A DNA stretch of 23,981 nucleotides, from the IMG/VR virus record IMGVR_UViG_3300043427_000649, positions 1 through 23,981 of that record; one strand, written 5' to 3'. The DNA is from a virus. The notes under the pieces were generated by a model, which saw only the letters and a program-made list of their open reading frames with translations, was not told the DNA's origin and did not search any database. Position numbers and translations under genes: made by a program. This document shows, piece after piece, positions 5 to 23,981 of this stretch. The number at the start of each line of letters is the position of its first letter. Positions within the stretch are counted from its first letter, which is position 1.

Positions 5-2041
5 ATGGCAGATTTAGACCAAAACGAGTACGAGCAGCCATCTCAGGCCGACAAGGACTTGACCGCATTTGTCGTTAACCACTGCGACAAGTGGCGGGAC
101 TACCGAAATGCCAACTTCATGACGTCGTATCTGGAATATGAGCGCATTTTCCGTGGTGAATGGGCAGCAGAAGACAAAACGCGCGAGTCTGAGCGCTCCA
201 GAATCGTGACGCCTGCCACCCAACAGGCTGTAGAGACCAGACACGCTGAAATTCTTGAGGCAATTTTCGGCCAGGGTGAGTTTTTCGACATTCAAGACGA
301 CTTGCAAGACGTCAACGGCAGCCCGTTGGACGTGGGCGTGCTCAAAGCGCAGCTCATGGAGGACTTCAAGCAGGACAAGATCAGAAAAGCGATTGATCAG
401 ATCGAGCTGATGGCCGAAATCTACGGCACGGGCATCGGCGAAATCGTTGTCAAGACGGAAAAGGTGTTCGAGCCCGCAACGCAGGCGATTCCAGGCCAGA
501 TGGGCCAAGCGGCCATCGGCGTGGTGGAAAAAACACGCATCGCCGTGAAGATCATGCCTGTCAACCCCAAGAATTTCTTGTTTGACCCCAACGGCACGAC
601 GATTGACGACTGCATGGGTGTGGCGATTGAGAAGTATGTGGGCATCCACAAGATCGTTGAAGGCATGGAAAACGGCATTTACCGCAAGGTGGATATCGGT
701 TCGGCCTCCGAGGACACTGATCTGGAGCCAACGCAAGAGGTCACGCAGTACCGCGACGAAAAAGTGCTCTTGCTCACGTACTACGGACTGGTTCCGAAGG
801 AGTTGCTGGACGAAGACGCCGATGTAGTCGATCTGTTCCCCGAGGACTCGCAGGCTGACACGTACTCGAACATGGTGGAGGCGATTGTCGTAATCGCCAA
901 CGACGGCGTGCTGCTCAAAGCCGAGGCGAATCCGTACATGATGAACGACCGTCCGGTCATCAGCTACCAAGACGACACTGTACCCAACCGCTTGCTGGGT
1001 CGCGGTACGGTGGAGAAGTCTTACAACATGCAAAAGGCGATTGACGCCCAGGTGCGCAGCCATCTGGACAGTCTGGCGCTGACAACCTCACCCATGATGG
1101 GCATGGACGCCACCCGTCTACCACGCGGCGCACGGTTTGAGGTCAAGCCCGGCAAAGCGTTCATGGTCAACGGCAACCCAGCCGAGATTCTGTACCCGTT
1201 CAAGTTCGGCGAGACGAGTCTGAACAACCTGAACACGGCCAAAGAGTTCGAGCGAATGCTGCTGCAAGCCACTGGCACGCTGGACTCACAGGGTATGGTC
1301 AGCCAAGGCAACCGAGACGGTGCGGGCATGAGCATGGCGGTGGCCACGGTGATCAAGAAGTACAAGCGCACGCTGGTGAACTTCCAAGAGGATTTCTTGA
1401 TCCCGTTCATCAAAAAAGCGGCGTTCCGGTACATGCAGTTCGACCCTGAGCGCTATCCGAGCGTAGACATGAAGTTCGTGCCGACGGCCACGCTGGGCAT
1501 CATCGCCCGTGAGTACGAGCAGCAGCAGTTCATTGGTCTTTTGCAGACGCTGGGGCCAGACACTCCGGTGCTGCCGCTGATCTTGAAGGGCATCTTGAAC
1601 AATTCTAGCCTGACCAACCGCTACGAGCTGATGGCAGCGCTTGACCAGATGAGCCAGCCAGACCCACAAGCGCAAGCAATGCAAGAAGCGCAGCAGCAGT
1701 TGGCCATGCAAGCGGCGCAGGCTCAGATCGCGGTCAGCACAACGCAGGCCGAGCAGAACCGGGCCGAGGCGACCAAGCTGATGACCGAGGCGCAGCTCAT
1801 GCCGCAAGAGGTGCAGGCCAAGGTGATCGCATCGACCACCAAAAACCTGCCTGCTGGCAACGAGTCCAACGAGTTCGACAAGCGTGTGAAAATCGCTGAA
1901 TTGATGCTCAAGGAAGCGGACATCAAGAACAAGAGCAAGATTGTTGAGTTGCAAATGAACAACGCAAAGAACAATGTTGTGGATGTGGAAAACGACTTCC
2001 TCGAAACCTTGAACACGGAGTTGACAAATGGCAATCGATAA
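5..2041 (+). CDS. Portal protein (podovirus type)
   Basis: This 678-residue protein is read as the portal: the dodecameric ring at the capsid vertex through which DNA is packaged and ejected and onto which the tail is built. The N-terminal third fits podoviral portals, with an aromatic Trp/Tyr/Arg-rich start (CDKWRDYRN), then SRIVTPATQQAVETRHAEI and ILEAIFG. The middle holds the NMQKAIDAQVRSHLDSLAL helix. The C-terminus is a long Gln/Ala-rich helical region, roughly residues 545-600, like the barrel of P22-type portals. Length is close to the 650-750 residues usual for such portals. Only four bases precede the ATG, so the ribosome site lies outside the window. It overlaps the fibre gene by 14 bases. 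Terminase is expected just upstream. The family call rests on recalled similarity and on context. Confidence 0.82.
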   Translation: MADLDQNEYEQPSQADKDLTAFVVNHCDKWRDYRNANFMTSYLEYERIFRGEWAAEDKTRESERSRIVTPATQQAVETRHAEILEAIFGQGEFFDIQDDLQDVNGSPLDVGVLKAQLMEDFKQDKIRKAIDQIELMAEIYGTGIGEIVVKTEKVFEPATQAIPGQMGQAAIGVVEKTRIAVKIMPVNPKNFLFDPNGTTIDDCMGVAIEKYVGIHKIVEGMENGIYRKVDIGSASEDTDLEPTQEVTQYRDEKVLLLTYYGLVPKELLDEDADVVDLFPEDSQADTYSNMVEAIVVIANDGVLLKAEANPYMMNDRPVISYQDDTVPNRLLGRGTVEKSYNMQKAIDAQVRSHLDSLALTTSPMMGMDATRLPRGARFEVKPGKAFMVNGNPAEILYPFKFGETSLNNLNTAKEFERMLLQATGTLDSQGMVSQGNRDGAGMSMAVATVIKKYKRTLVNFQEDFLIPFIKKAAFRYMQFDPERYPSVDMKFVPTATLGIIAREYEQQQFIGLLQTLGPDTPVLPLILKGILNNSSLTNRYELMAALDQMSQPDPQAQAMQEAQQQLAMQAAQAQIAVSTTQAEQNRAEATKLMTEAQLMPQEVQAKVIASTTKNLPAGNESNEFDKRVKIAELMLKEADIKNKSKIVELQMNNAKNNVVDVENDFLETLNTELTNGNR

Positions 2042-5000
2042 AATTTTTGAGGGCGCAGCGCTGGACGGCATTGCGGACAACCTGTTCAACTCGGTCAGCA
2101 ACTCGGTCTCAGAGATCAAGGCCATGCAGCAGCGCAAGGCCGCTGAAAACGTGCAGTTGGTGATTCAGGCACTCAAGAAGATCGACAACGACATCCGCGA
2201 GAAGTACGACGGCGTGGCCACGGTGATCGAAAAGCGCGTGGCCACGATCAAAGATGGCCGTAACGGCATCGACGGCAAAGACGGGCGCGACGGCAAGGAC
2301 GGTCGCAATGGCCGTGACGGTGCGCCAGGTGCTCGCGGTATGGACGGCGCTCGCGGCATGGATGGCCAAGACGGTGAAGATGGTGTGTCGGTCACTGAGG
2401 CACACATCGACTTTGATGGCAGCCTGATCATCAGCCTGTCGTCGGGCCGTCAGATCAACGTGGGCGAGGTCGTGGCCCCCGATCTGGCCGAGAAGATCAA
2501 GGTGATCACCAATGGTGGTGGCACTAGTCAAGGCGTGCTGGACACATTGACCAGCCTGCAAAACCAGATCAATGCACTGGTGAGCTTAGGTTCAGTCACC
2601 TACGAGGGCACTTGGAACGCATCAACCAACACACCGACCATTGTGGCGGGCACTGGCGACAAGGGTGAGTATTACGTCGTGTCAGTGGCGGGCAACACCA
2701 GCATTGACGGCGAAACGCTGTGGGGTGTGGGTGACTGGATCATCTTCAACGGCGTGGTGTGGCAAAAGGTTGACGGCGGCAGCACAGGGGACCTCACCTC
2801 ACTGACTGTTAGAGACAACACCATTTTGGGCAGCAGCAACAGCGACACGGTGACCTTCACTGCCCGTATCAACTCAGACTTTGATCCTGCAACAGATAAT
2901 GCCTTTGATTTAGGTCGTGTTGGGCATGAGTGGCGTAATCTGTATCTTGATGGCACGGCTAATATTGACAGCCTGATTGCTGACACAGCGGATATTAACG
3001 GCGGCACGATTGATGGCGCGTCTGTGGGCGCTACAACAGCCTCTACAGGCGCGTTTACTACGCTGACCTCATCGTCTGATGCAACCCTGCATGGCCTCAC
3101 CGTAGGCCGTGGTGCAGGTGCTGTGTCTACCAACACTGCGGTGGGTGCTAGTGCTTTGGCGGCTAATACGACTGGCAGTTTTAATACTGCTTTTGGTCAA
3201 ACCGCTGGGTCAACAATTACCACTGGCACTGAAAACGTGGCTATCGGTCAAGGTTCAATGTCTAATGGAACGGTCACGGGCGATTACAACACCACTGTTG
3301 GAACCTCGTCCACGCGCAACCTGACCAGCGGAGCGTCCAACGTGGCGGTTGGTCATGCCGCGCTTAATGCCACCACCACAGGGGGGAATAACGTAGCCCT
3401 TGGAAAGTCTGCGCTTCAATTAAACACCACAGCATCTAACAACACTGCCGTCGGTTATCAGGCGTCTTATGCAAATACTACAGGCGCATCGAACGTATCG
3501 CTTGGAGCACTCGCTGGTTACACAAACACTACTGGCAACAACAACACAACTCTTGGAAACCAAGCAGGGCAGTCAAATGTCACGGGTTCGCAAAACGTAT
3601 TTGTCGGGTCGGTTGCTGGATTTAACAGCACAGGCTCCAGCAACACTGGTGTTGGATACCAAGCGGTTCGCAATTCCAGCGGAGGGTCAAACGTAGGTGT
3701 TGGTCAGTCTGCGCTTGTAACAAATACCACGGGCGCAAACAATATCGCAGTGGGCAACAACGCACTTGCCGGAAATAGCACAGGCGCGTTTAACACCGCA
3801 ATTGGCGACAGTGCAATGGCGGCAAACACCACTGCAAACGACAACGTAGCAGTTGGACAGTCCGCATTGGATGCCAATACTACTGGCGCAGCCAACGTGG
3901 CTTTGGGTCGTGATGCTTTAGGGGCCAACACTACAGCAAGCTATAACACCGCTGTTGGATACCAATCGGGGTATAGCAATACTACAGGTGCATCCAATCA
4001 GGTTTTTGGCTATCAGGCGCTGTATTCAAACCAAACTGGCAGCAACAACGCTGCATTTGGTACAGGCGCTTTGTACGCAAACACTGCCAGTGATAATGCT
4101 GCATTTGGTTCAGGTGTTACCGCAGTAGCGGGGGGCGCACTTGTTTCAAACACAACTGGAGAACGCAATGCAGCTTTTGGTGGGGGCGCTGCTTCTTCTA
4201 ACACCACGGGCAATTACAACACCGCAATTGGCACTCTTGCATTGAAGTCCAACACCACAGCCTCCGAAAACACTGCTGTTGGTTATCAGGCTTTATATAG
4301 TCAAACAACAGCAGGTACTGGTTCTAACACTGCTTTTGGTCATCAAGCAGGTTACGACACCAACGGTTTTTACAACACCTTCATTGGATACAAATCTGGC
4401 CTGCCTTCTACGGGCAACCAAAACACCTTCATAGGTCATGCTTCTGGCTCGGCAATGACCAGTGGCTCCAAGAACACCATCCTTGGCGTTTACAACGGCA
4501 ACCAAGGTGGCCTCGACATCCGCACTGGCAGCAACTACATCGTGCTGTCTGATGGGGATGGGAACCCGAGGGGGGTTTTTGACAACAATGGGAATTTGTT
4601 GGTTGGGGCGACTAGTACCATAAGCATTTCTGGCGTTTCAACAGGCCATGCTTTTGTTCAAGCGACAGATGGTAGATGGATTACAGGTTTTAGACATTCC
4701 ACAACAGCGACCCCTTGGGGCATTGCTATTGATTATTCTGCTGTTGCACCAAACGACACAAGCAGCCACTTTTTGTTTTGCACTGACAGTGCTGCAACCC
4801 GAGCAGTAATTCGCTCAAATGGTGGTCTTGCTAACTACCAAGGCAACGATGTCAACTTGTCAGACCGCCGAGAGAAGACCAACTTTGCCCCGGCTAAGTC
4901 GTACCTTGAAACCATCTGCGCTATCCCTGTGCAGACCTTTAACTACATCGACCAGAACATGGAAGATGACCCCGGCCTGACGCTTGGTGTTGTGGCTCAA

Positions 5001-5168
5001 GATGTTCAAGCCGTTGCGCCTGAGTTGGTCATGGAAAGCAATTGGGGCAGCAAAGACGACCCCAAGATGCGCCTGTCGATCTACCAGACCGATTTGCAAT
5101 ACGCCTTGATGAAGGCTTTGCAAGAACTCAAAGCAGAATTTGATGCTTACAAGGCGGCACATCCATGA
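2028..5168 (+). CDS. Large modular tail fibre with collagen-like region, 17-residue repeats and S74 chaperone domain
   Basis: This 1046-residue receptor-binding fibre begins inside the portal gene, with GGAG 7 bases before its ATG. Modules in order: an N-terminal helical/coiled-coil segment (about 1-75); Gly-X-Y triplets (77-119); a carbohydrate-binding-like module (about 185-255, motif GDWIIFNGVVWQKV); a short module with DLGRVGHEWRNLYLDG (about 290-315); about 24 repeats of 17 residues, NTTGxxNxAxGxxALxx (about 369-815), like trimeric adhesin head repeats; and a C-terminal intramolecular chaperone (945-1046). The S74 protease signature SDRREK is present, with Ser945 and Lys950 spaced like the catalytic Ser/Lys pair of endosialidase, so the chaperone is expected to cleave itself off after trimer folding. 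The N-terminus lacks the virion-anchor sequence seen in the second fibre, so how it attaches is unclear. The gene directly follows the portal, an unusual place for a fibre. Confidence 0.85.
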   Translation: MAIDKIFEGAALDGIADNLFNSVSNSVSEIKAMQQRKAAENVQLVIQALKKIDNDIREKYDGVATVIEKRVATIKDGRNGIDGKDGRDGKDGRNGRDGAPGARGMDGARGMDGQDGEDGVSVTEAHIDFDGSLIISLSSGRQINVGEVVAPDLAEKIKVITNGGGTSQGVLDTLTSLQNQINALVSLGSVTYEGTWNASTNTPTIVAGTGDKGEYYVVSVAGNTSIDGETLWGVGDWIIFNGVVWQKVDGGSTGDLTSLTVRDNTILGSSNSDTVTFTARINSDFDPATDNAFDLGRVGHEWRNLYLDGTANIDSLIADTADINGGTIDGASVGATTASTGAFTTLTSSSDATLHGLTVGRGAGAVSTNTAVGASALAANTTGSFNTAFGQTAGSTITTGTENVAIGQGSMSNGTVTGDYNTTVGTSSTRNLTSGASNVAVGHAALNATTTGGNNVALGKSALQLNTTASNNTAVGYQASYANTTGASNVSLGALAGYTNTTGNNNTTLGNQAGQSNVTGSQNVFVGSVAGFNSTGSSNTGVGYQAVRNSSGGSNVGVGQSALVTNTTGANNIAVGNNALAGNSTGAFNTAIGDSAMAANTTANDNVAVGQSALDANTTGAANVALGRDALGANTTASYNTAVGYQSGYSNTTGASNQVFGYQALYSNQTGSNNAAFGTGALYANTASDNAAFGSGVTAVAGGALVSNTTGERNAAFGGGAASSNTTGNYNTAIGTLALKSNTTASENTAVGYQALYSQTTAGTGSNTAFGHQAGYDTNGFYNTFIGYKSGLPSTGNQNTFIGHASGSAMTSGSKNTILGVYNGNQGGLDIRTGSNYIVLSDGDGNPRGVFDNNGNLLVGATSTISISGVSTGHAFVQATDGRWITGFRHSTTATPWGIAIDYSAVAPNDTSSHFLFCTDSAATRAVIRSNGGLANYQGNDVNLSDRREKTNFAPAKSYLETICAIPVQTFNYIDQNMEDDPGLTLGVVAQDVQAVAPELVMESNWGSKDDPKMRLSIYQTDLQYALMKALQELKAEFDAYKAAHP
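2256..2384 (+). repeat. Collagen-like Gly-X-Y repeat in fibre 1
   Basis: Fourteen consecutive Gly-X-Y triplets plus a closing Gly (residues 77-119 of the fibre). X and Y are mainly Asp, Lys, Arg, Asn and Met, and only one triplet contains proline. At DNA level it appears as GGC/GGT every third codon. Collagen-like stretches form trimeric rods in phage fibres, which fits a trimer with a C-terminal chaperone. Stability would have to come from Lys/Asp and Arg/Asp ion pairs, since phages mostly lack proline hydroxylation. Confidence 0.9.
3132..4490 (+). repeat. Array of about 24 coding repeats of 51 bases (17 residues) in fibre 1
   Basis: Tandem degenerate repeats with period 17 residues and consensus NTTGxxNxAxGxxALxx. 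Examples are NTTANDNVAVGQSALDA, NTTGAANVALGRDALGA and NTTASYNTAVGYQSGYS, all in register. A few units are longer or shorter, for example near nt 4110-4140 and 4290-4330. The pattern of NxAxG plus Ala/Leu resembles the left-handed beta-roll repeats of trimeric adhesin heads and suggests a long beta-solenoid shaft. Such arrays can change copy number by recombination, giving fibre length variation. Confidence 0.85.
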
Positions 5169-5650
5169 TTACCCAACAACAAGCCTTAGACCTGTTTGAG
5201 TACCGTGATGGAGATTTGCACTGGAAGGTGCGTCCTGCGAACTTGGCTGTCTGTGGAACTGTCGCTGGTTACAAAAACACCAAAGACTCGTATTGGCGAG
5301 TGGTTGTGCAGGGGAAAATGTATTTGAAGCACCGCCTTGTATTTTTGTACCACCACGGCAATTTGCCCAAGTATGTTGACCACATCAACGGCAACCGAGA
5401 AGACAACAGGATTGAAAACTTGCGCTTGGCTACACAAGCTGAAAATGCAAGAAACGCTAAACTTCCACGCCACAACACATCAGGGGTTAAAGGCGTGTGC
5501 AAGCCTAAAAAAGATAAGAACTGGACTTGTTCATTGCGAACAAACAAAAAACTCAAAACTGTTGGTGGGTTCAAAAACAAGGAACTGGCTCAGGAGTTTA
5601 TGGAGTTGTGGCGTGAAATGGCACACGGGCAATTTGCCAATCATGGTTAA
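5165..5650 (+). CDS. HNH homing-type endonuclease with AP2-like C-terminal domain
   Basis: This 161-residue protein fits free-standing phage HNH endonucleases, which nick or cut DNA at or near their own insertion site and spread by repair. The HNH core is HRLVFLYHHG followed by VDHINGNREDNRIENLRLAT, giving the first His, the DHxxG turn and the NxxENL Asn. The C-terminal part (NTSGVKGV, then basic residues and GGFKNKELAQEF) resembles the AP2-like DNA-binding domain often fused to these nucleases. The ATG overlaps the fibre stop codon (ATGA). By hand count nt 5401-5580 is about 41% G+C against about 55-60% for many late genes, consistent with recent insertion. It separates the fibre from its small partner gene, while the second copy of that pair at 13636-15507 has no such insert. 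Confidence 0.9.
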   Translation: MITQQQALDLFEYRDGDLHWKVRPANLAVCGTVAGYKNTKDSYWRVVVQGKMYLKHRLVFLYHHGNLPKYVDHINGNREDNRIENLRLATQAENARNAKLPRHNTSGVKGVCKPKKDKNWTCSLRTNKKLKTVGGFKNKELAQEFMELWREMAHGQFANHG

Positions 5651-5665
5651 CCAAAGGAAACCAAA

Positions 5666-5983
5666 ATGACAACTTTTACCACTACTATTAATTCGATGTA
5701 CACGCTCAACACCCCCGATCCCGGGTACGTTGTGAACGTACTGTGGACAGTGACCGGGGTGGACGGCGACAACACTGCCTCCATCGGCGGCAACACACAG
5801 TTCAGTTCTGCTGACCAAGAGGGCGCATTCGTGCCTTACGAATCGCTGACTGAGGCTCAAGTCTTGGCGTGGATTCCCGCCAACCAGATCGAGAGCGCAC
5901 AAGCCTGCGTGCAGGGCCAGATCGACAGCATGATCACCCCACCTGTCAGCCCACAAAGCACAACTTTGCCTTGGGCAGCTTGA
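5666..5983 (+). CDS. Small fibre-associated protein, copy 1 (unknown function)
   Basis: A 105-residue soluble protein of unknown function. It aligns without gaps to the product of 15196-15507, with about 55 of 103 positions identical by hand count. Shared blocks are MTTFT, GVDGxxTAS, CVQGQI, PPV and a terminal LPW. From memory it belongs to a widespread family of small phage proteins encoded beside fibre genes (I believe DUF7936); that assignment needs a profile search. Here the HNH gene lies between it and the fibre. Location suggests a role in fibre assembly or attachment, but nothing in the sequence proves it. The start is supported by AAAGGA upstream, after a 15-base gap. Confidence 0.75.
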   Translation: MTTFTTTINSMYTLNTPDPGYVVNVLWTVTGVDGDNTASIGGNTQFSSADQEGAFVPYESLTEAQVLAWIPANQIESAQACVQGQIDSMITPPVSPQSTTLPWAA

Positions 5984-10322: not shown

Positions 10323-10532
10323 ATGGCTACATTTCGATGCTTGCAAAGCGGCAACACTGTGACCTTTACACAACAGCATGACATTGACACTATGCGCGGT
10401 CATGCAGGTTATGTTCGGGTCGATGAAAACGGCGAGCTGGTGCAGGTCCAAGAGGCCATCAAAGAATTACCAATGATTGCCTCTGCGCCAGTTAAACGCA
10501 TGGGCAGACCCCGCAAGGCAGTAACCATCTAA
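10323..10532 (+). CDS. Hypothetical 69-residue protein in head region
   Basis: A short protein beginning ATFRCLQSGNTVTFTQQHDI, with YVRVDENGELV in the middle and a basic C-terminal tail KRMGRPRKAV. The tail contains a GRPRK motif resembling an AT-hook, a minor-groove DNA-binding peptide. The body looks like a small beta-domain of the kind found in phage head accessory proteins. GAAAG lies just upstream. No function is recognised; the AT-hook reading is an inference from five residues. Confidence 0.6.
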   Translation: MATFRCLQSGNTVTFTQQHDIDTMRGHAGYVRVDENGELVQVQEAIKELPMIASAPVKRMGRPRKAVTI

Positions 10533-10542
10533 GGAGCACATC

Positions 10543-10689
10543 ATGCCAATGGTCGGAACAAAGAAGTTTGCCTACACACCCAAGGGCAAAAAAGAAGCCA
10601 AAGAGCAGTCGATGAAGTCGGGCAAGCCCGTCAAGTCCATGCCTCTTCGCGGCTCACGCACGGCGACCAACAAAGCCAAGAAAGGTTAA
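10543..10689 (+). CDS. Basic 48-residue micro-protein 1
   Basis: A 48-residue, very basic protein: by hand count 12 Lys, 2 Arg and 2 Glu, a net charge near +12. It starts MPMVGTKKFAYTPKGKKEAK and ends NKAKKG. A good AAGGAG precedes the ATG by 6 bases, which strongly supports translation. Small Lys-rich proteins in this part of podovirus-like genomes are recurrent, but their role is not known to me. DNA binding or neutralising packaged DNA charge is an inference from composition. Confidence 0.68.
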   Translation: MPMVGTKKFAYTPKGKKEAKEQSMKSGKPVKSMPLRGSRTATNKAKKG

Positions 10690-12068: not shown

Positions 12069-13639
12069 GCCAAGCCCTCCAGACTGCTAGTGTCTCAGCG
12101 CCAGGTTTCTTCGGGCTGAACACCCAAGACTCGCCCTTAGACTTGGCGGCTGGTTTTGCACTGGTTGCAAATAATTGCATCATTGACCAGTTCGGTCGTA
12201 TTGGTGCAAGAGAAGGGTTCCGCCGAATCAACGCTTCGTCAGGCGCTTTGGGCGACAACAGCGTCACGGTCATCCATGAGTTGGTGCAAGCTGACGGCGT
12301 GCTGACCATATTGTTTGCAGGCAACAACAAGCTCTTTAAACTCGACGGGTCCAACGCCGTTGTTGAGCTGACGTATGGGGGCGGGGGTACAGCGCCGCTG
12401 ATCACTGCGAACAATTGGCAGTGCGCGTCTCTCAACGGCATAGCCTACTTCTTTCAAGTGGGCTTTGATCCACTGATCTTCGATCCTGCGGTTAGCGCCA
12501 CCACATACCGCAGGGCCAGCGAGAAGGCGGGCGCAACAGGCACACCGCCTCAAGCCAACATTGTTATCTCGGCGTATGGCCGCTTGTGGGCTGCGGACAC
12601 CTCGTCCGATAACGTCACGGTTTTCTTCTCCGACTTGCTTAGCGGGCACAAGTGGACTGGCGGGTCTTCGGGCAGTCTGAACGTCAACACGGTTTGGCCA
12701 AGCGGCGCGGACAACATCACCGGCTTGGCTGCGCACAACAATTTCTTGCTGATCTTTGGTAGCCGTCAGATTCTGGTCTACCAAGGTGCAAACGACCCCA
12801 CTGCTACGTCGCCAGCCGTATTTGCGTTGGCCGATACAGTCAGCGGCATAGGGTGCCTCGCCCGCGACTCGATTCAATCGACTGGCAAGGACGTTTTGTT
12901 CCTGTCTAACTCGGGCGTGCGGTCTTTTGCCCGAACGATCATTGAAAAATCACTGCCTGTTGGCGACATCTCCAAAAACGTCCGCAACGATTTGATACAG
13001 ATTTTGGCGAGCGAGATACCCGCCAACATCAAGTCAGTCTACTCAGAAACCAAGGCGTTCTACTTGCTGACCCTTCCGTCAGTCAACGAGGTGTATTGCT
13101 TTGATACCAGAGTGCAACTGCAAGACGGTTCGTTCCGCGTAACGGTTTGGGATTCCATCCAGCCGTCTGCTTTGCTCTCTCGCCGCAATGGTGACTTGTT
13201 CCTAGGCAAGAGTGGGTTTGTTTGTAAATACGGCACGTATCAAGACCACACCAGTTCTTACCGGTTCATGTATTACACGAACAACGCTGACTTGGGCAAC
13301 CAAAACATCATCAGCATTTTGAAGCAGCTCAAGCTCATCGCAATTGGCGGCAGCAACCAGACGGTCACGATCAAGTACGGCTTTGATTTCGCGGCGAACT
13401 ACCAGTCTGTCAACGTGATTATTCCGACGCAAAGCGTAGCGGAGTACGGCATTGCTGAATTTGGGGCAAACGGCGTGCCGCTGGCCGAGTATGTCGAGGG
13501 CGTAGCGCTGCAAACGCTCTCTGCGCCTGCCTCCGGTAGCGGTAAAATTGTTCAAACTGGATACGAGTCTGACATCAACGGCGCTGCGCTGTCGATCCAG
13601 CGCATCGAAATCCAAAGCAAAGATGGGAAAACATCGTGA
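12065..13639 (+). CDS. Tail hub/nozzle protein, P22 gp10-like stabilisation protein
   Basis: A 524-residue, beta-rich protein with repeated short strands, starting SAPGFFGLNTQDSPLDLAAG and NCIIDQFGRIGAREGFRRI. That opening is characteristic of P22 gp10-type proteins (packaged-DNA stabilisation family), which form the hexameric tail hub below the adaptor. Later blocks are VISAYGRLWAADTSSDNVTV, HNNFLLIFGSRQILVYQG and DVLFLSNSGVRSF, as expected of a beta-propeller. Length is close to gp10. It overlaps the adaptor (ATGA) and the next fibre gene (GTGA). In P22, gp10 holds the tailspikes, so the fibre encoded next is a likely partner. Confidence 0.8.
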   Translation: MSQALQTASVSAPGFFGLNTQDSPLDLAAGFALVANNCIIDQFGRIGAREGFRRINASSGALGDNSVTVIHELVQADGVLTILFAGNNKLFKLDGSNAVVELTYGGGGTAPLITANNWQCASLNGIAYFFQVGFDPLIFDPAVSATTYRRASEKAGATGTPPQANIVISAYGRLWAADTSSDNVTVFFSDLLSGHKWTGGSSGSLNVNTVWPSGADNITGLAAHNNFLLIFGSRQILVYQGANDPTATSPAVFALADTVSGIGCLARDSIQSTGKDVLFLSNSGVRSFARTIIEKSLPVGDISKNVRNDLIQILASEIPANIKSVYSETKAFYLLTLPSVNEVYCFDTRVQLQDGSFRVTVWDSIQPSALLSRRNGDLFLGKSGFVCKYGTYQDHTSSYRFMYYTNNADLGNQNIISILKQLKLIAIGGSNQTVTIKYGFDFAANYQSVNVIIPTQSVAEYGIAEFGANGVPLAEYVEGVALQTLSAPASGSGKIVQTGYESDINGAALSIQRIEIQSKDGKTS

Positions 13640-15186
13640 GTAACTACGTTCAAAGCACCAACTTCGCGACCAAAGATACGTTGCCCACAGGCAACCCACT
13701 CAAGATCGTCAAAGGCACGGAGATCAACGCCGAGTTTGTCAACATCGCCGTAGCGGTCGCAACAAAAGCTGACTTGATCTCGCCAGTGCTGGTCACACCC
13801 GCGCTTGGAACGCCCGTCAGCGGCGTGTTGACCAACTGCACCGGGCTGCCTAGCTCGGGTTTGCTCACAAACTCGCTCACGATTGGCGGCACTGCCATTG
13901 CACTCGGCGCGTCTACCAACGCTCTGGCAAACGACATCACCATCAACGACGTCACAATTGGGCGCGGCGCAACTTCCGAAATCACCAATACCGCATTGGG
14001 TAATGGCACATTAGGCGCAGTAACCACAGCCATTAATTGCACAGCCGTGGGCACTTCAGCACTGTTCAGCAACACAACTGGAGCAAGGAATACGGCGGTC
14101 GGCGTGCGTGCTTTGGTTACAAACACCACCGGCGTCAACAACGTAGCCGTTGGCGTTAGCTCTTTGGATCAAAACTTGAGTGGCCTTTCCAACATTGCTG
14201 TTGGGCGCTCCGCGCTGTTCGATAACACAACAGGGTCCAGCAACGTGGCCATCGGAACAGTTGCCCTGAGCAACAACATTTCCGGCAACTCCAACGTGGC
14301 GATTGGCTTGGATTCGCAGTTCACCAACACCACCAGCACAGGCAACATCGGTATCGGCTTTGCCACGCTGTTCTCAAACAATTCCGGCACGTCTAACATG
14401 GCGATTGGCGGCAGCTCGTTGTACAACAACAACGCGGGCTTCAACAACATCGCCATCGGTGTTGACTCTATGTTTACGAACACCACCGGCGACGGCAACA
14501 TCGCGGTAGGCTATCAGGCCATGTTTGACAACGTGACCGGCAGCCAAAACGTGGCGGTCGGTGTGCAAGCATTGGAAGGCAACATAGGTGCTATCTATAA
14601 CACTGCGGTTGGCTTCCAATCACTTTACGCAAACAACGGCTATGGCAACACGGCCATCGGTCACATAGCGTTGGTTGGCAACACCGGCGGTCAGTCCAAC
14701 GTGGCGATTGGTAAGTCGGCGCTCGGCGCTTGCACTACCGGCTCGGGCAACACGACCATCAACGCGATGAATGGCTCAAGTGTTTACGCGCCTGTCTTTA
14801 ACGTCACCACAGAAAGCAATCGTTTTGTCGCGGGTTCAACTGGTGTGACCAACGCCTATGTTCAAGTGGCTTGGACGGTCGTTTCTGACGCGCGGGACAA
14901 GACCGACTTCGCGCCCGTACCCCACGGCTTGGACTTTGTGACCAAACTCAAGCCTACTACCTATCGGTACAAGCTTAATCGTAGCGACACAGAAGGCCAC
15001 GGCCCGCTGCGCTACGGCTTCAAGGCCCAAGACGTGTTGGAGCTGGAAGGCGACAACCCAGTGATTGTGGACACCGAAGACACTGAAAAGCTCAAGTTCA
15101 ACGATCAGTCGATGATTGCTGTTTTGGTAAACGCCATCCAAGAACTCAAAGCCGAGTTCGACGCTTACAAAGCCACACATCCTTGA
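13636..15186 (+). CDS. Second tail fibre with N-terminal anchor, 17-residue repeats and S74 chaperone domain
   Basis: A 516-residue fibre starting with GTG on a GTGA overlap. The N-terminus (FATKDTLPTGNPLKIVKGTE, then INAEFVNIAVAVATK) matches the virion-anchor sequence common to many podovirus fibres. About 14 repeats of 17 residues (118-374) follow, with the same NTTGxxNxAxGxxAL consensus as fibre 1. The C-terminal S74 domain (417-516) has SDARDK, with Ser417 and Lys422 as the likely self-cleavage pair. Both fibres end in a near-identical QELKAEFDAYKAxHP. It lacks the collagen and carbohydrate-binding modules of fibre 1 and is half as long. It follows the gp10-like hub and precedes the second copy of the small fibre-associated gene. 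Confidence 0.87.
   Translation: MSNYVQSTNFATKDTLPTGNPLKIVKGTEINAEFVNIAVAVATKADLISPVLVTPALGTPVSGVLTNCTGLPSSGLLTNSLTIGGTAIALGASTNALANDITINDVTIGRGATSEITNTALGNGTLGAVTTAINCTAVGTSALFSNTTGARNTAVGVRALVTNTTGVNNVAVGVSSLDQNLSGLSNIAVGRSALFDNTTGSSNVAIGTVALSNNISGNSNVAIGLDSQFTNTTSTGNIGIGFATLFSNNSGTSNMAIGGSSLYNNNAGFNNIAIGVDSMFTNTTGDGNIAVGYQAMFDNVTGSQNVAVGVQALEGNIGAIYNTAVGFQSLYANNGYGNTAIGHIALVGNTGGQSNVAIGKSALGACTTGSGNTTINAMNGSSVYAPVFNVTTESNRFVAGSTGVTNAYVQVAWTVVSDARDKTDFAPVPHGLDFVTKLKPTTYRYKLNRSDTEGHGPLRYGFKAQDVLELEGDNPVIVDTEDTEKLKFNDQSMIAVLVNAIQELKAEFDAYKATHP
13987..14757 (+). repeat. Array of about 14-15 coding repeats of 51 bases in fibre 2
   Basis: Degenerate 17-residue repeats, for example NTTGARNTAVGVRALVT, NTTGVNNVAVGVSSLDQ and NVTGSQNVAVGVQALEG. 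They share period and consensus with the array in fibre 1, although the DNA is more G/C-rich here. One unit near nt 14635 is one residue short. The repeats form the predicted beta-roll shaft between the virion anchor and the S74 domain. Confidence 0.83.
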
Positions 15187-15195
15187 AAGCCATAG

Positions 15196-15507
15196 ATGAC
15201 TACATTCACAGCCAAAATCCTTGCGATGAACACCTTGCAGCAGCCGGGCCCCGATTACGTGGTCAGCATGTTGTGGGAACTCACTGGCGTAGATGGCCAG
15301 CACACCGCGTCTGTACGCGGCACCACGCACTTTGACTCATCTGAGCAGTCTGGGCCAGTGACGCCATATAGCGCGCTGACACCCGAGATCGTCGTGAGCT
15401 GGATTTCGCCGGAAGACATGCTGGTTGCCCAGCAGTGCGTTCAGGGCCAAATCAACACCCTGATCGCGCCGCCTGTTCTGCCGCAAAACACGCCGCTGCC
15501 TTGGTAA
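15196..15507 (+). CDS. Small fibre-associated protein, copy 2 (unknown function)
   Basis: A 103-residue paralogue of the protein at 5666-5983, ungapped and about 53% identical by hand count. The shared MTTFT start, GVDGxxTAS, CVQGQI and terminal LPW define the family. It lies 9 bases after the fibre 2 stop, with only a weak GAAAG before the ATG, so it is probably translated by coupling. Occurrence directly after each S74 fibre argues for a fibre-linked role such as assembly chaperone or collar piece. Each copy may be matched to its own fibre, which would explain why two are kept. Confidence 0.77.
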   Translation: MTTFTAKILAMNTLQQPGPDYVVSMLWELTGVDGQHTASVRGTTHFDSSEQSGPVTPYSALTPEIVVSWISPEDMLVAQQCVQGQINTLIAPPVLPQNTPLPW

Positions 15508-20921: not shown

Positions 20922-20974
20922 GCGTCACAGCCGTCCCTTGGGCACCTCGTGCTTATTCAGGAACGGCTTGACGC
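20922..20974. repeat. Imperfect inverted repeat at the convergent junction, possible two-way terminator
   Basis: GCGTCACAGCCGT at 20922-20934 pairs with ACGGCTTGACGC at 20963-20974: a 12-bp stem with one bulged base and a 28-base loop that holds a further GCAC/GTGC pairing (20942-20952). It starts right after the stop of the last late gene and covers the stop of the facing gene. No T-run follows on either strand, so factor-independent termination is unproven. It lies partly within coding sequence. Confidence 0.4.
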
Positions 20975-21104
20975 CGGGCTTGGCTCGGCTGTAGATGCCA
21001 AAGGCTTTGTAATCAGTGCTAGGGGCCACGCCCTTGGCTCTGAACGCAACATCTTGCAAGAAGATGCTCGGGCGTGGGTCTTTCTTCCAATCAAACGGGC
21101 TCAT
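20925..21104 (-). CDS. Hypothetical 59-residue protein, last gene of the leftward block
   Basis: A small basic protein (MSPFDWKKDPRPSIFLQDVA, later TDYKAFGIYSRAKPG and a KGRL end). Its ATG overlaps the stop of the gene before it as ATGA, and the reading frame fills the space to the convergent junction exactly, which supports it as real. No family is recognised. It ends three bases from the stop of the last late gene, so its transcript would run into antisense of the ejection gene unless it is terminated. Confidence 0.62.
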   Translation of the reverse strand: MSPFDWKKDPRPSIFLQDVAFRAKGVAPSTDYKAFGIYSRAKPGVKPFLNKHEVPKGRL

Positions 21105-21565
21105 ACAGTCTCCACAATAGGACGCGATTTCTTAAGGCGCACAGTTTCAGTTACAAACTCCATCGCCGTCTCCAACTGCTTGACCGTTACGGTCTCCAGT
21201 TGAGCGTCGTGTATCTCCATCGCCAGGTTTAGGGCCGTCAGCTCGTCACCGCGCACGATAAAGCGGCTCTTCAGACCACGGCGAGCGAGCGTGAGCAGCG
21301 CGTCTTGCGCCGCTCGCAGCTCGGGCATCCAGTCGCTTCCAACACCCTGCCGGGCAAGCGCCTCGGCGATGTTGAGCGCAGCGATGATGATGTCGATCTC
21401 AACTCGCGTCGCAGTGCCTAGCCGCAGCGTGTTCATCGCGTCGTGGTTGCGTATCTTAATCGTGGCGCTGGCGCTGACATCTTCCACACGCCGTAGGCCC
21501 GACTGCACCCAGGCCATGTTGTCTAGGCGCACGCCTTTGGGCTTGTACTTGCTGCGCTTTCTCAT
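21101..21565 (-). CDS. Conserved hypothetical phage protein, 154 residues
   Basis: A soluble protein with a basic start (MRKRSKYKPKGVRLDNMAWV), a helical middle (IIIAALNIAEALARQGVGSD, then ELRAAQDALLTLARRG), an LTALNLAMEIHDAQLE block and the end RPIVETV. I recall close relatives in many proteobacterial phages, none with known function. The Met at 21565 was preferred over one five codons upstream because it forms the ATGA overlap used throughout this block. It is the largest complete gene here, so it may be the most useful handle for identifying the phage group. Confidence 0.78.
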   Translation of the reverse strand: MRKRSKYKPKGVRLDNMAWVQSGLRRVEDVSASATIKIRNHDAMNTLRLGTATRVEIDIIIAALNIAEALARQGVGSDWMPELRAAQDALLTLARRGLKSRFIVRGDELTALNLAMEIHDAQLETVTVKQLETAMEFVTETVRLKKSRPIVETV

Positions 21566-21732
21566 GACAGCGACTTCCATTTGCTCTTGGGCTCGTTAGC
21601 CCTCTCCACGTAGAAGTGGATCAGGAAGTTGAACACCTGCGAGTAGCTCATGACGATGCCCGTGTCAGCGGCCAGCCGGTCACGTATCTTGTCGATGTCG
21701 TTGCTCACGGGTATGGTGACGCGTTTGGTCAT
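21562..21732 (-). CDS. Ribbon-helix-helix-like DNA-binding protein, 56 residues
   Basis: The sequence reads as one short strand (KRVTIPVSN), a helix (DIDKIRDRLAADTGIV) and a second helix (SYSQVFNFLIHFYVERAN). That is the Arc/MetJ-type ribbon-helix-helix plan, in which a dimer inserts a two-stranded sheet into the DNA major groove. Length is typical of such phage repressors. A strong GGAGGAG lies 7 bases before the chosen ATG at 21732; a longer in-frame start at 21846 was rejected. It could regulate this leftward operon, but no operator was identified. Fold assignment is by pattern only. Confidence 0.66.
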   Translation of the reverse strand: MTKRVTIPVSNDIDKIRDRLAADTGIVMSYSQVFNFLIHFYVERANEPKSKWKSLS

Positions 21733-21806
21733 TTCTTGCTCCTCCAAAACGCCCACACGTACACGGCAGTGTGAGCAATGCCGATCAGCCACATCCACCA
21801 AGTCAT
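21729..21806 (-). CDS. 25-residue Trp-rich membrane peptide
   Basis: A tiny reading frame with five Trp in 25 residues: MTWWMWLIGIAHTAV, then YVWAF and a WRSKK end. This is one hydrophobic helix with a basic C-terminus, expected to insert in the inner membrane with the basic end inside. It begins at an ATGA overlap, has GGGGGA upstream, and ends at an ATGA overlap with the RHH-like gene, so it fills the space between neighbours exactly. Function is unknown; host-directed membrane peptides are common in early phage operons. Confidence 0.55.
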   Translation of the reverse strand: MTWWMWLIGIAHTAVYVWAFWRSKK

Positions 21807-22087
21807 GTGTTCCCCCTGTTTCGGATGGCATCACCCCATGTGCCACCGCCCTCTTTCAAAATGTGGTCAACAAACTTCGCGCACACCTCACGCTCGGCTG
21901 CCAACGCATCGGTCAGGATGTTGACCTGTCGCTCCATTGCTTCCATCTCGGCAGGCCATGAGTTGCGCTCATCAGCACGGACAAGGGCTTCAAAGGCTTT
22001 GAGCACTACTGTGCTGTCGCACCAAATGTCGCGGATGCCTGTAAAGTTAAAGCCAGCCTCACGGGCCATGTCTATCGTGTCTCTCAT
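21803..22087 (-). CDS. Hypothetical helical/coiled-coil protein, 94 residues
   Basis: An acidic helical protein starting MRDTIDMAREAGFNFTGI, with a conserved-looking coiled-coil core EMEAMERQVNILTDALAAER and an end EGGGTWGDAIRNRGN. The NILTDALAAER stretch is similar to EILSDALAESR in the gene at 22490-22711, suggesting a shared motif. The ATG at 22087 is used because it overlaps the upstream stop as ATGA; an in-frame Met at 22120 was rejected. No function is recognised. Confidence 0.68.
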   Translation of the reverse strand: MRDTIDMAREAGFNFTGIRDIWCDSTVVLKAFEALVRADERNSWPAEMEAMERQVNILTDALAAEREVCAKFVDHILKEGGGTWGDAIRNRGNT

Positions 22088-22290
22088 GGCTTCATCCCCC
22101 TCAACATCTCTGCCCTGCAATCGTTCCAGCCTTGGATGTACTGGGGATGCTCGGGCGCGTGACGGAACAGGGCATCAGGGACTGCTGGCTGTGCTTTGAG
22201 TGCCGCCAGTTCTTTGCCCATCGCTTCGCAGTTCGGGCAGTAGCAAGACTGCACAGGTGCTGGCTGTGCGGGTGGGAAGGGCCAGCTCAT
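22084..22290 (-). CDS. Hypothetical Cys-motif protein, 68 residues
   Basis: A small protein with a Pro-rich start (SWPFPPAQPAPVQ), then CYCPNCEAMGKELAALKAQP. Three Cys in CxCPxC could help bind a metal, though a fourth ligand is not obvious (Cys or His further along, near HAPEHPQY). The end is QGWNDCRAEMLRGMKP. The start at 22290 follows GGGGGTGG and makes an ATGA overlap; the upstream in-frame Met at 22347 was rejected. Similar proteins occur in other phages as far as I recall, without known function. Confidence 0.66.
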   Translation of the reverse strand: MSWPFPPAQPAPVQSCYCPNCEAMGKELAALKAQPAVPDALFRHAPEHPQYIQGWNDCRAEMLRGMKP

Positions 22291-22493
22291 GCCACCCCCA
22301 ACGAGATGGTGAATGGGGACAGCCAGCCGACAAGCGCCCAAATACATCCGGCAACAGCAGCAAAGACATACGACAGTTGGCTAAGGCCACCTCTGAATGA
22401 CAGCTCGCCAAAGATGACGGATACAGCCGCAGCCGTAACGTAAAGAGCGCAAGCGGTAAGCGCCAGAAAACCAATGATTGCAAGTGCTGTCAT
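22287..22493 (-). CDS. Two-pass membrane protein, 68 residues
   Basis: A hydrophobic protein with two predicted membrane helices: about residues 3-29 (ALAIIGFLALTACALYVTAA) and 40-61 (LSYVFAAVAGCIWALVGWL), joined by a short FGELSFRGG loop. GGAGA precedes the ATG. Both ends overlap neighbours by ATGA. Topology resembles small holin-like or host-takeover membrane proteins, but nothing more specific can be said. Confidence 0.66.
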   Translation of the reverse strand: MTALAIIGFLALTACALYVTAAAVSVIFGELSFRGGLSQLSYVFAAVAGCIWALVGWLSPFTISLGVA

Positions 22494-22711
22494 GCTTTCT
22501 CCACTCGGCCAATCAACCCCACAGGCTCATAGTCCAGCCCCAACTCTCTGGCGTTCTCTGCCTTCTTGTCGAGGGCGGCGTTTACCTTCAACGCTGCAAC
22601 TTCACGCCGTGACTCAGCCAGTGCATCACTCAGGATTTCCACTTGTCTGTTGGTTGCCTCAAGTTCAGCTTGCAGCACGGCGACCAGCTTTAGTAATTCG
22701 TCTTTGGTCAT
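22490..22711 (-). CDS. Hypothetical coiled-coil protein, 73 residues
   Basis: A helical protein from MTKDELLKLVAVLQAELEAT to EILSDALAESRREVAALKVN, a likely coiled coil over about residues 3-45, ending GLDYEPVGLIGRVEKA. The motif EILSDALAESR is close to NILTDALAAER in the gene at 21803-22087. The ATG at 22711 overlaps the upstream peptide stop (ATGA); GGGGGTGG lies ahead of it. No family is recognised. Confidence 0.66.
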   Translation of the reverse strand: MTKDELLKLVAVLQAELEATNRQVEILSDALAESRREVAALKVNAALDKKAENARELGLDYEPVGLIGRVEKA

Positions 22712-22797
22712 ACCACCCCCGCCAGCCACCACAGGCCATAAATGATTGACACAGACACTGCCGCTGATGCCAGTAAGCAGGCAATTAAGATTTTCAT
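22708..22797 (-). CDS. 29-residue membrane peptide
   Basis: A short hydrophobic peptide (MKILIACLLASAAVSVSIIY, then GLWWLAGVV). The first 20 residues resemble a signal peptide or a single membrane helix, with a Cys at position 7 in a partly lipobox-like setting. GAGGATC precedes the ATG. It overlaps neighbours by ATGA at both ends. Function is unknown; it is below normal gene-calling length. Confidence 0.52.
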   Translation of the reverse strand: MKILIACLLASAAVSVSIIYGLWWLAGVV

Positions 22798-22883
22798 TTG
22801 ATGATCCTCATAAACGCGCCGCATCGGGCGCACTTGTAAATGGGCTGGCCCTCAACGGGCTCCCACATGTGTTGGCAATTCAT
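22794..22883 (-). CDS. 29-residue zinc-ribbon peptide
   Basis: A tiny protein with Cys3-x-His5 and Cys18-x2-Cys21 (MNCQHMWEPV ... YKCARCGAF), a complete four-ligand set for one zinc ion, ending in a basic MRIIK. A strong GGAGGT lies 5 bases ahead of the ATG. Both ends overlap neighbours (ATGA). Such minimal knuckles often bind proteins or nucleic acid; the target is unknown. Confidence 0.6.
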   Translation of the reverse strand: MNCQHMWEPVEGQPIYKCARCGAFMRIIK

Positions 22884-23038
22884 TTGTACCTCCGCAGCGG
22901 CTCGACCTTCTTCTCTGGCGGTGGCGGTGTCATCTTCTCGGACGGTGGGGTCCAGCCCCACTTGCGCCAGGTGGCCTGAACGTCAGCCCCGCTGCTCCAC
23001 TTGAATTCCTTGTTTGGTACTGATGGGTAAACTTTCAT
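22880..23038 (-). CDS. Hypothetical 52-residue Pro-rich protein
   Basis: A small basic protein with an aromatic N-terminal part (MKVYPSVPNKEFKWSSGADV, then ATWRKWGW) and a Pro/Lys-rich tail (TPPSEKMTPPPPEKKVEPLR). AAGGAG precedes the ATG by 7 bases. Its start lies 56 bases inside the preceding gene, one of only two junctions here that are not ATGA. The tail looks unstructured. No family is recognised. Confidence 0.6.
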   Translation of the reverse strand: MKVYPSVPNKEFKWSSGADVQATWRKWGWTPPSEKMTPPPPEKKVEPLRRYK

Positions 23039-23198
23039 GATTTGCTCCTTCGATTACTAAGTGCCGGTAGGCACGGATTGCTGTCTTCAAGTCTGCACGC
23101 AGACTCTCGATCAGCTCGTCTTGCTCAGACAACCGCTTGGCAGCGTCTTGGGCAAACTTCGCCAGGTTGTGCGCTTCCCACGCCTGAAACCTGTTCAT
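22983..23198 (-). CDS. Hypothetical helical protein, 71 residues
   Basis: A helical protein (MNRFQAWEAHNLAKFAQDAA, later SEQDELIESLRADLKTAIRA), with a C-terminal stretch EGANHESLPISTKQG. The ribosome site is weak, and initiation likely depends on the ATGA overlap with the upstream gene. The last 56 bases overlap the next gene in another frame. Function is unknown; it may be a coiled-coil adaptor or regulator. Confidence 0.62.
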   Translation of the reverse strand: MNRFQAWEAHNLAKFAQDAAKRLSEQDELIESLRADLKTAIRAYRHLVIEGANHESLPISTKQGIQVEQRG

Positions 23199-23386
23199 GC
23201 TTTGGTGGCCAGCGCCAGCAGCTCGGCCCTCTCTCTGGCCACGCGCAGCGTGTTGTAGCGCTGGTGCAGGCGCTCGATGATCTTGACGCGGCGCTCGCCT
23301 GCCATCTCATCATCGAGCAGCGCCTTGACCTTGGCCTCTGGCATCGCCGCCAGCACGTCGTTAAGACTTCGCCATGTGTACTTCAA
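23195..23386 (-). CDS. Conserved hypothetical protein, 63 residues, TTG start
   Basis: A small protein reading KYTWRSLNDVLAAMPEAKVK, then GERRVKIIERLHQRYNTLRV, which I recall as a recurrent pattern in early regions of proteobacterial phages with no known function. The start is judged to be TTG at 23386, with GGAG 7 bases ahead. A longer TTG start at 23407 has no ribosome site. It overlaps the upstream gene by 26 bases and the downstream one by ATGA. Many callers would miss the TTG. Confidence 0.68.
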   Translation of the reverse strand: MKYTWRSLNDVLAAMPEAKVKALLDDEMAGERRVKIIERLHQRYNTLRVARERAELLALATKA

Positions 23387-23522
23387 TTTTCTTCTCCAGT
23401 TGTTCAATTAGCTTGGTCGTGCGGGCGTGTGAGCGCTGCGCTGCGTTGAGCTGCCGCGTCTTGTGCCGCAGCTCCGACTTGGCCGCTCGCAGTTTGGCTT
23501 TCCATTGGTCGATGCGTTTCAT
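23361..23522 (-). CDS. Hypothetical basic coiled-coil protein, 53 residues
   Basis: A very basic helical protein (MKRIDQWKAKLRAAKSELRH, then TRQLNAAQRSHAR and IEQLEKKIEVHMAKS) with heptad-like spacing over most of its length. It starts at an ATGA overlap with the acidic gene upstream. The ribosome site is poor, which fits coupled translation. It ends 26 bases inside the next gene. The pairing of a basic coiled coil with an adjacent acidic protein is noted but no function is assigned. Confidence 0.6.
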   Translation of the reverse strand: MKRIDQWKAKLRAAKSELRHKTRQLNAAQRSHARTTKLIEQLEKKIEVHMAKS

Positions 23523-23848
23523 AGTTTTTCCAAAGTATCTATCTGATCAATAATCCATTGGCAATCTTTACGCAAAGCCGCAAACAAGGGCGCGCTTTTT
23601 GCGGTGATGGCTTTATCGCCGCAGGTATGCAAATCAAACGTGTCGTTGTAGACATCCTTGAGCTTTATATGGACCGCCAGCGAGACATCTAACGGTGTGT
23701 TCCAAATTAAATTCAATGTTTCTATCGCGTCTTCAAAATCACCCTCACATTGGTTTGACGTGTAGACGCAAAACTTAAAGTCGCCGTTTTCATCAACGTC
23801 CTCGGGTAGTATTGATTCGTCTATTTCAAGTTCAATCATTTTTTTCAT
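23519..23848 (-). CDS. Acidic 109-residue protein from an A+T-rich gene
   Basis: A soluble acidic protein: by hand count about 23 Asp/Glu against about 10 Lys/Arg, with the acid packed in the first 45 residues (ELEIDESILPEDVDENGDF, EGDFEDAIE). GGAGG lies 7-8 bases before the ATG. G+C of nt 23521-23820 is about 43% by hand count, against about 66% at 23221-23340, so the gene looks recently acquired. It overlaps the helicase stop and the next start by ATGA. No family is recognised. Small acidic early proteins can mimic DNA or inhibit host enzymes; this is only a candidate. Confidence 0.72.
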   Translation of the reverse strand: MKKMIELEIDESILPEDVDENGDFKFCVYTSNQCEGDFEDAIETLNLIWNTPLDVSLAVHIKLKDVYNDTFDLHTCGDKAITAKSAPLFAALRKDCQWIIDQIDTLEKL

Positions 23849-23981
23849 TTAAGTGCCTCCAAGGCGATTTGAGAAAGGGATAGCTTGTCGTGCAGTGAGC
23901 GCCAGATTTTCTCATCGACGGTCTTGTCGGTCAGAAATACGTAGCACCACACGTCATGCCGCTGGCCGCTACGATGCAAGC
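23845..23981 (-). CDS. SNF2-family helicase, C-terminal fragment (cut by window edge)
   Basis: The 44 residues present read LHRSGQRHDVWCYVFLTDKT, then VDEKIWRSLHDKLSLSQIAL and the end. HRSGQ is the end of helicase motif VI (QxxxRxHRxGQ) of SNF2-type superfamily 2 ATPases, and the following VWCYVFLTDKTVDEKIW matches the strand and helix that follow it. Such proteins are common in phage replication blocks, where they remodel or translocate on double-stranded DNA. The gene continues beyond base 23981, so start and length are unknown. A stop in another frame at 23849 was rejected because this frame matches the family and ends in an ATGA overlap. Confidence 0.83.
   Translation of the reverse strand, partial: LHRSGQRHDVWCYVFLTDKTVDEKIWRSLHDKLSLSQIALEALK

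Follow-up and report, generated by a model that had tools for sequence, protein, structure and literature searches.

The virus record IMGVR_UViG_3300043427_000649, a 24-kb fragment analysed over its full 23,981 bases (hereafter the window; the record's genome holds no further sequence), carries on its minus strand a leftward run of small genes joined to one another by the tetramer ATGA, which is shared between the stop of one gene and the start of the next. Comparison with related loci makes it probable that these are accessory genes and that their ATGA joints play two roles, acting as a relay for translation, which would hand ribosomes from gene to gene, and as boundaries at which genes are exchanged. 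In its sequence, the window resembles lake-water phages.

In the proposed explanation, the small accessory phage genes would be carried on one leftward message, and a ribosome finishing one gene would already be positioned at the start codon that follows, often beside a Shine–Dalgarno core that the preceding gene encodes in its terminal codons. In evolution, comparison shows the joint to be a place of gene gain, loss and replacement. A unit that runs from ATGA to ATGA brings along a start and a stop codon of its own, plus the A with which the following ATG begins, so it could be inserted after any gene ending in ATGA and leave the neighbours unharmed. The most likely route would be rare recombination over about 4–14 nucleotides (nt) of identity, followed by selection for intact coupled genes, such that only exchanges preserving the joint would be retained. 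Within this explanation the micro-genes would therefore be functional, conserved as proteins and yet individually dispensable.

Layout of the gene chain

Fifteen frames, g1 to g15, lie on the minus strand between the end of a helicase gene at 23845 and position 20925. An earlier note on this DNA had reported that thirteen of the fifteen junctions are exact four-base overlaps, and all thirteen were recovered, at 21101, 21562, 21729, 21803, 22084, 22287, 22490, 22708, 22794, 22880, 23195, 23519 and 23845 (each being the lower coordinate of the tetramer). The two remaining overlaps, of 56 nt between g4 and g5 and of 26 nt between g2 and g3 (given a g3 start at the TTG at 23386), were likewise found, as were the frames of 25 (g12), 29 (g6) and 29 (g7) codons within the block. 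Eleven of the ATGA links are consecutive, and the window has no longer series of linked frames when frames of 20 codons or more are counted. In 2000 first-order Markov copies of the block, the longest ATGA run was at most four, which argues that the chain did not arise by chance. Among 119 loci, the run is the joint second longest, after the 13 links of locus L049, and frames running from ATGA to ATGA in the 119 regions numbered 666 on the block strand versus 43 on the opposite strand. The four-base overlap in itself is ordinary, since the structural gene starts at 5165, 11421, 12065 and 18219 of the window also overlap by four bases. The chain lies after the helicase gene and before the rightward virion operon, with which it converges stop to stop at 20921/20925, three bases apart; the part further upstream lies beyond the fragment edge. 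The portal of the window phage is SU10/P22-like.

Re-initiation of ribosomes along the whole message, which the earlier note had proposed, is plausible by analogy with published experiments on other pairs of genes. One study (PMC6728339), in its available portion, describes 13 of 14 overlapping pairs as strictly coupled, and excerpts of another (PMC10666635) describe coupling as strongly distance-dependent. The chain shares with the termination–reinitiation pairs in these parts of the two papers the four-base overlap and a Shine–Dalgarno contribution that depends on the gene. It differs from them in forming 11 consecutive links rather than one pair, and coupling in the chain is putative. A Shine–Dalgarno core precedes 619 of 1274 seams (the joints in the compared regions), versus 256 of 1992 other ATGA tetramers, and 7 of the 13 joints in the window. 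The final codons of g6, for example, supply such a core, GAGG, before ATCATCAAATGA.

The ATGA joints as exchange boundaries

Relatives were collected from viral contigs with a neighbouring 900-residue protein as query, which gave 27 loci, and with g14, which gave 80 of 109 loci. Further relatives came from short DNA patterns of g12 (22 loci) and g6 (65 stretches), and loci fetched in this way had to match 18 and 23 bases of those genes, respectively. The locus set of 197 stems mostly from these scans, with three more from GenBank phages; L108 is the window itself. For the seam statistics, 144 regions with an anchor were dereplicated to 119 (494 kb), a set to which the window belongs. Known phages are distant, as two records hold a g14 homologue and phage DSL-LC05 from Dishui Lake has a close g6.

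Evidence for exchange at the joints comes from the positions at which DNA similarity between loci breaks off. Local stretches with identity of at least 85% and a length of at least 60 were considered, and any stretch touching the retrieval anchor was discarded. Their boundaries fell within 3 nt of a seam ATGA in 93 of 603 starts and 104 of 636 ends, against a null of 1.8% (maximum 3.5%). At ATGA tetramers outside seams, the counts were 22 of 603 starts and 30 of 636 ends, with a null of 2.8%. Without the anchor filter, the seam share was 17.2% of 989 starts and 19.5% of 1038 ends. Moreover, a seam-blind detection of insertions gave 73 distinct cases, with both ends on a seam ATGA in 35 and either end in 49; the 5′ end lay on a non-seam ATGA in four, and a random 5′ point falls on a seam in 3.3%. 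Pairs of filled and empty sites point the same way, the breakpoint lying on ATGA in 14 of 16 versus 0.11 expected (of 55 candidate pairs, 40 were examined and 16 of these retained by the arm criterion; gaps or contig ends removed the other 15).

Single cases illustrate how such units move. The g12 cassette, 78 nt from ATGA to ATGA, is 95–96% identical in three other contigs, and the 60-nt flanks are 15–37% identical; its family occupies five loci with five upstream and four downstream contexts. The g6 family is found in 42 loci with 30 upstream and 24 downstream contexts, and the g7 family in four loci with three different contexts on each side. Directly after the ATGA at the helicase end, for which 11 loci could be compared, stands g2 in nine, g1 in the window and g12 in L127. 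Eight other loci have an empty site for g1. In one of the loci without g1 (L041), the helicase ATGA leads straight into g2, with arms that are 98% and 97% identical and a breakpoint interval of ATGA plus two bases. Overall, ATGA-to-ATGA frames form 99 families present in at least two loci, along with 262 singletons.

A separate observation concerns DSL-LC05 (L195), where the initial codons of a glutaredoxin-like gene at 3928–3998 run into a AAGGAGCAACACATGA joint. The full cassette, of 77–79 residues, is present in eight other loci, and the stretch looks like a cassette shortened by an exchange just before the Shine–Dalgarno region.

The route of exchange may also be sought in short shared stretches at the joints, acted on by a phage recombinase. 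The youngest events share 14 nt (L127/L113) and, immediately ahead of the ATGA, 5 nt (L166/L174), and recurrent contexts such as gcaaggagcaacacATGA stand before g6 copies; a model of this kind is described for some phages in the accessible sections of PMC3233612 and PMC3029335. Events with both ends on seams, on the other hand, mostly share 4–7 nt, and positions upstream of the joints carry little information, none above 0.36 bit; we regard dependence on such stretches as unlikely. No sequence motif was found at the joints beyond the purine-rich Shine–Dalgarno region, and no dedicated recombination site was seen there. A preference of the recombination process itself for the joints may contribute.

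A bolder proposal would make the joints true hot spots of gene capture. Lake phages would then share a pool of micro-gene cassettes of 25–150 codons, pluggable at any ATGA joint, in an integron-like manner with a stop/start connector in place of a recombinase site. We consider this improbable. Unlike an integron cassette array, the joints showed no conserved recombination site among sequence motifs (structured sites were not tested).

Coding status of the smallest frames

The earlier note had argued that even the smallest frames are translated. Comparative data support this for g6 and g12, which show purifying selection and no stops, and support it less for g7, in which the sign of selection is weak. 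Among 198 loci, homologues covering at least 80% numbered 81 for g6, 9 for g7 and 11 for g12, with no internal stop in any of them, versus one stop-bearing homologue for g4 and two each for g14 and g15. The small frames are thus not broken in relatives. They are often lost, but in their entirety, with a different gene bounded by ATGA in their place, which argues for accessory genes rather than noise.

The clearest case is g6. Its residue pattern C.H.W...[YF].C..C occurs at 74 distinct sites, 71 of which start with ATGA, and the ends are ATGA in 61, GTGA in 6 and TTGA in 1. Residues C4, H6, W8, E9, Y17, C19 and C22 are invariant in 53 sequences, among them the four candidate Cys/His ligands (C4, H6, C19 and C22); this invariance is partly built in, because the sequences were gathered by a pattern containing those residues or by tblastn. 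The resemblance to zinc proteins in solved structures is weak and non-significant, and from its sequence g6 is a probable zinc knuckle. The ratio of non-synonymous to synonymous polymorphism (pN/pS) is 0.20 over 29 alleles and 30 codons, and the shifted frames give 1.67 and 1.61. These alleles were picked as ATGA-to-ATGA frames, so their fixed last base is not independent evidence. Codon 2 begins with A at 71 of the 74 sites and encodes T, S, N or I; this leading A is needed by the overlap, and it is found in 8 of the 16 ATG-started structural genes of the window. The CxH...CxxC micro-protein is widespread and offers a candidate family for functional tests.

For g12, pN/pS is 0.13 (four alleles), with 3.6 and 1.08 in the shifted frames, and the protein is identical in L109, L113 and L127, where the DNA changes are silent only.

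These data bear on the possibility that the small frames are spurious, that is, frames that happen to be open between larger coupled genes, their ATGA being supplied by base composition. A frame of 25 codons is readily open by chance, and relatives give weak or no support for g7, g1 and g9. This reading is opposed by the eleven consecutive links, by the pN/pS of g6 and g12, and by the silent changes in the three g12 contigs. It is contradicted for g6 and g12 and possible for g7, and as a general account we hold it to be highly improbable.

Genes of 25–30 codons are too short for usual annotation, and here their movement as units between fixed seams makes it possible to recognise them as real. 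This offers a simple search rule for such genes in other phages, namely ATGA-to-ATGA frames that recur in several contexts. The expectation that automatic annotation would miss many of these genes proved true in two GenBank relatives. In DSL-LC05, a 36-codon frame at 4084–4193, ATGA-joined to a 30-residue gene, is unannotated, and in MW202484 no annotated feature lies under the g14 homologue. In the GenBank record OR003940.1, the 30-residue g6 homologue at 10522–10614 is named DNA-directed RNA polymerase; no evidence for the name was found, and it calls for caution.

Weighing selection against targeted exchange

Several results weigh against the view of the joints as exchange boundaries between real genes. 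For g7, pN/pS is 0.67 over three alleles, and the shifted frames give 1.19 and 0.64, so that g7 does no better than a shifted frame and is unproven as a gene; g1 and g9 have no homologue among the 198 loci searched. About half of the insertions (38 of 73) have at most one end on a seam ATGA. Shared ancestry inflates the seam counts, as the 201 seam ends stem from 47 different contexts. Exchange within genes also occurs. Additionally, junctions with a short gap are enriched in similarity ends as well (3.7–10.4%, versus 16–21% at seams and 1.8% at random points), which indicates that part of the seam effect is due to gene boundaries generally. A search for joined-flank empty sites with shifted borders did not discriminate, giving 55 matches at the true border, 38–59 at shifts of 15 or 30 nt and 2–14 at shifts of 48–75 nt; the control fails at small shifts, where the mismatched stretch is too short to take a match below the threshold.

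Short peptide modules, for example ALDKKAENARELGLDYEP and HPQYIQGWNDCRAEMLRG, were also seen repeatedly in proteins that otherwise differ (in the window, g8 and g10; elsewhere, L032, L049, L079, L101, L026 and L039). They suggest exchange inside genes as well.

The strongest alternative holds that recombination is random everywhere and that survivors are filtered for intact frames, so that ATGA joints would be boundaries merely as gapless gene borders. Such a model is stated in the consulted part of PMC3233612, the joints have no motif beyond the purine-rich region, and the pattern recurs in the nin regions of lambdoid phages, where short-gap junctions are enriched too. A similarity end is carried by 207 of 1274 seams, 30 of 821 short-gap junctions and 103 of 5950 random points, and under stricter definitions by 17–21% of seams versus 8–10% of short-gap junctions. 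Similarity ends are thus about 1.7 to 4.4 times commoner at seam ATGA than at short-gap junctions, for which the list is crude, an excess that speaks against this alternative. We hold this alternative to fall not far short of probable, and still prefer the reading in which the ATGA joint itself serves as relay and exchange boundary. The chain provides a dense natural data set on why mosaic borders coincide with gene borders, that is, on targeted exchange versus selection after random exchange.

Comparison with known systems

The nin region of lambdoid phages was reportedly presented by Kroger and Hobom in 1982 (cited in PMC8022706) as a chain of interlinked genes. In phage lambda (J02459), the annotated stretch ending with Q contains seven 4-nt overlaps, and a lambdoid nin region carries a 524-nt insertion, a methyltransferase gene after ninB. 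Given the same treatment as the lake-phage regions, 13 lambdoid stretches had a similarity end at 43 of 142 seams versus 5 of 47 short-gap junctions; lambdoid insertions had both ends on seams in two of nine cases and either end in four of nine. This enrichment indicates that ATGA joints serve as exchange sites beyond the lake phages as well. The excerpted text of a paper on phage L (PMC8022706) attributes tight packing and numerous ATGA motifs to the nin genes of all lambdoid phages. The window chain thus resembles nin regions in its small co-directional accessory genes, its numerous ATGA overlaps and its gene exchange at joints. It differs from them in having genes as small as 25 codons and ATGA at 13 of 15 joints, and apparently in its placement, since it follows a helicase gene and, within the fragment, meets the virion operon head-on, whereas nin leads to Q. 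Furthermore, no Nin family (NinB, NinG, NinH, etc.) was found among the chain proteins scanned (10 each in PHROGs, Pfam and NCBIfam). As lambdoid nin regions behave alike, the chain can be viewed as a miniaturised form of a known interlinked chain combined with gene-border mosaicism.

In mycobacteriophages Gumball and Troll4, mosaic borders at start codons are discussed under two competing models in the part of PMC3233612 at hand, and competing models of mosaic borders also appear in the available pages of PMC3029335. DNA similarity breaks at gene starts in those mosaics as it does here; unlike them, the chain has its borders on the shared stop/start tetramer, with units down to 78 nt. A literature search returned no paper naming exchange at ATGA joints in its title or the opening of its abstract, subscription papers and preprints being mostly outside the search.

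Individual genes and other features of the window

All members of the chain lie on the minus strand. The helicase gene that precedes it, g0 (23845..23979), is truncated by the window edge; its 3′ end, with the stop inside the first ATGA, has a homologous counterpart in 10 other loci. It is taken to encode an SNF2-type helicase, on the basis of its sequence and because the chain of phage DSL-LC05 has an SNF2 helicase annotated upstream of it. The first gene, g1 (23519..23848, 109 residues), has ATGA at both ends and forms a precise 326-nt insertion. It is followed by g2 (23361..23522, 53 residues), with stop-free homologues in 11 of 198 loci, and by g3 (23195..23386, about 63 residues), which starts at TTG, overlaps g2 and has homologues in 11 of 198 loci; the g3 frame is kept in nine of nine relatives examined, and in L026 the start is an ATG one codon further in. 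Gene g4 (22983..23198, 71 residues) is covered to at least 80% in 6 of 198 loci, one of them (L033) having the internal stop, and g5 (22880..23038, 52 residues), which overlaps g4, has AAGGAG before its ATG and stop-free homologues in 21 of 198 loci.

The next two genes are g6 (22794..22883, 29 residues), the CxH-x-W-E ... Y-x-C-x2-C micro-protein, and g7 (22708..22797, 29 residues), which by eye has one transmembrane-like stretch. Gene g8 (22490..22711, 73 residues) appears coiled-coil-like by eye, and its homologues are partial and mosaic (18 matches in 198 loci, two covering at least 80%). Gene g9 (22287..22493, 68 residues) would be a membrane protein by composition and matches PHROG_15422 over residues 4–65 (E = 1.1e-4). 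Gene g10 (22084..22290, 68 residues), with at least 80% coverage in 6 of 198 loci and a match to PHROG_5117 (E = 0.0012), has a C-terminal module that is also present in other proteins. It is followed by g11 (21803..22087, 94 residues), covered to at least 80% in 19 of 198 loci and stop-free. Gene g12 (21729..21806, 25 residues) is tryptophan-rich and a probable membrane peptide; g7, g9 and g12 all look like membrane peptides by eye. Gene g13 (21562..21732, 56 residues), with stop-free homologues in 8 of 198 loci, looks by eye like a ribbon–helix–helix protein and had no match in Pfam or NCBIfam.

The most conserved member of the chain is g14 (21101..21565, 154 residues), which matches PHROG_20828 (E = 4.5e-8). 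Homologues covering at least 80% of it occur in 106 of 198 loci, 80 of which were fetched with g14 as query, and two contain a stop. Its predicted structure has six helices (predicted local distance difference test score, pLDDT, 86.7), and the model matched no solved fold at E below 1. The final gene, g15 (20925..21104, 59 residues), has homologues in 43 of 198 loci, two with a stop near the end. The libraries were scanned with 10 of the 15 chain proteins for PHROGs (g1, g3, g4, g8–g11 and g13–g15) and with 10 each for Pfam and NCBIfam, g1 and g12 each being run against a single library. For none of the tested members did a Pfam or NCBIfam family score above cut-off, and PHROGs gave PHROG_20828 and weaker matches only.

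As to the host, the g6 pattern was not found in genome contigs, and g14 relatives lie in one Rhodoferax and one Verrucomicrobiota metagenome bin, which disagree on the host. The phage relatives in the bins named Verrucomicrobiota and Rhodoferax (L211 and L212) have the same 57% match, and at least one of these bins probably holds a stray phage contig.

Elsewhere in the window, two long fibre-like proteins (2028–5168 and 13636–15186) are each followed by a similar small gene (5666–5983 and 15196–15507, respectively) whose product begins MTTFT. Both fibre-like proteins are rich in repeats of the NTAVG/NVAIG type and have similar C-terminal ends (RREKTNFAP and ARDKTDFAP), and the two pairs look like a duplicated two-gene tail-fibre set. 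Between the fibre genes, at 5165–5650, lies a gene for a probable HNH-type endonuclease, recognised by eye, the start of which overlaps the fibre gene by 4 nt.

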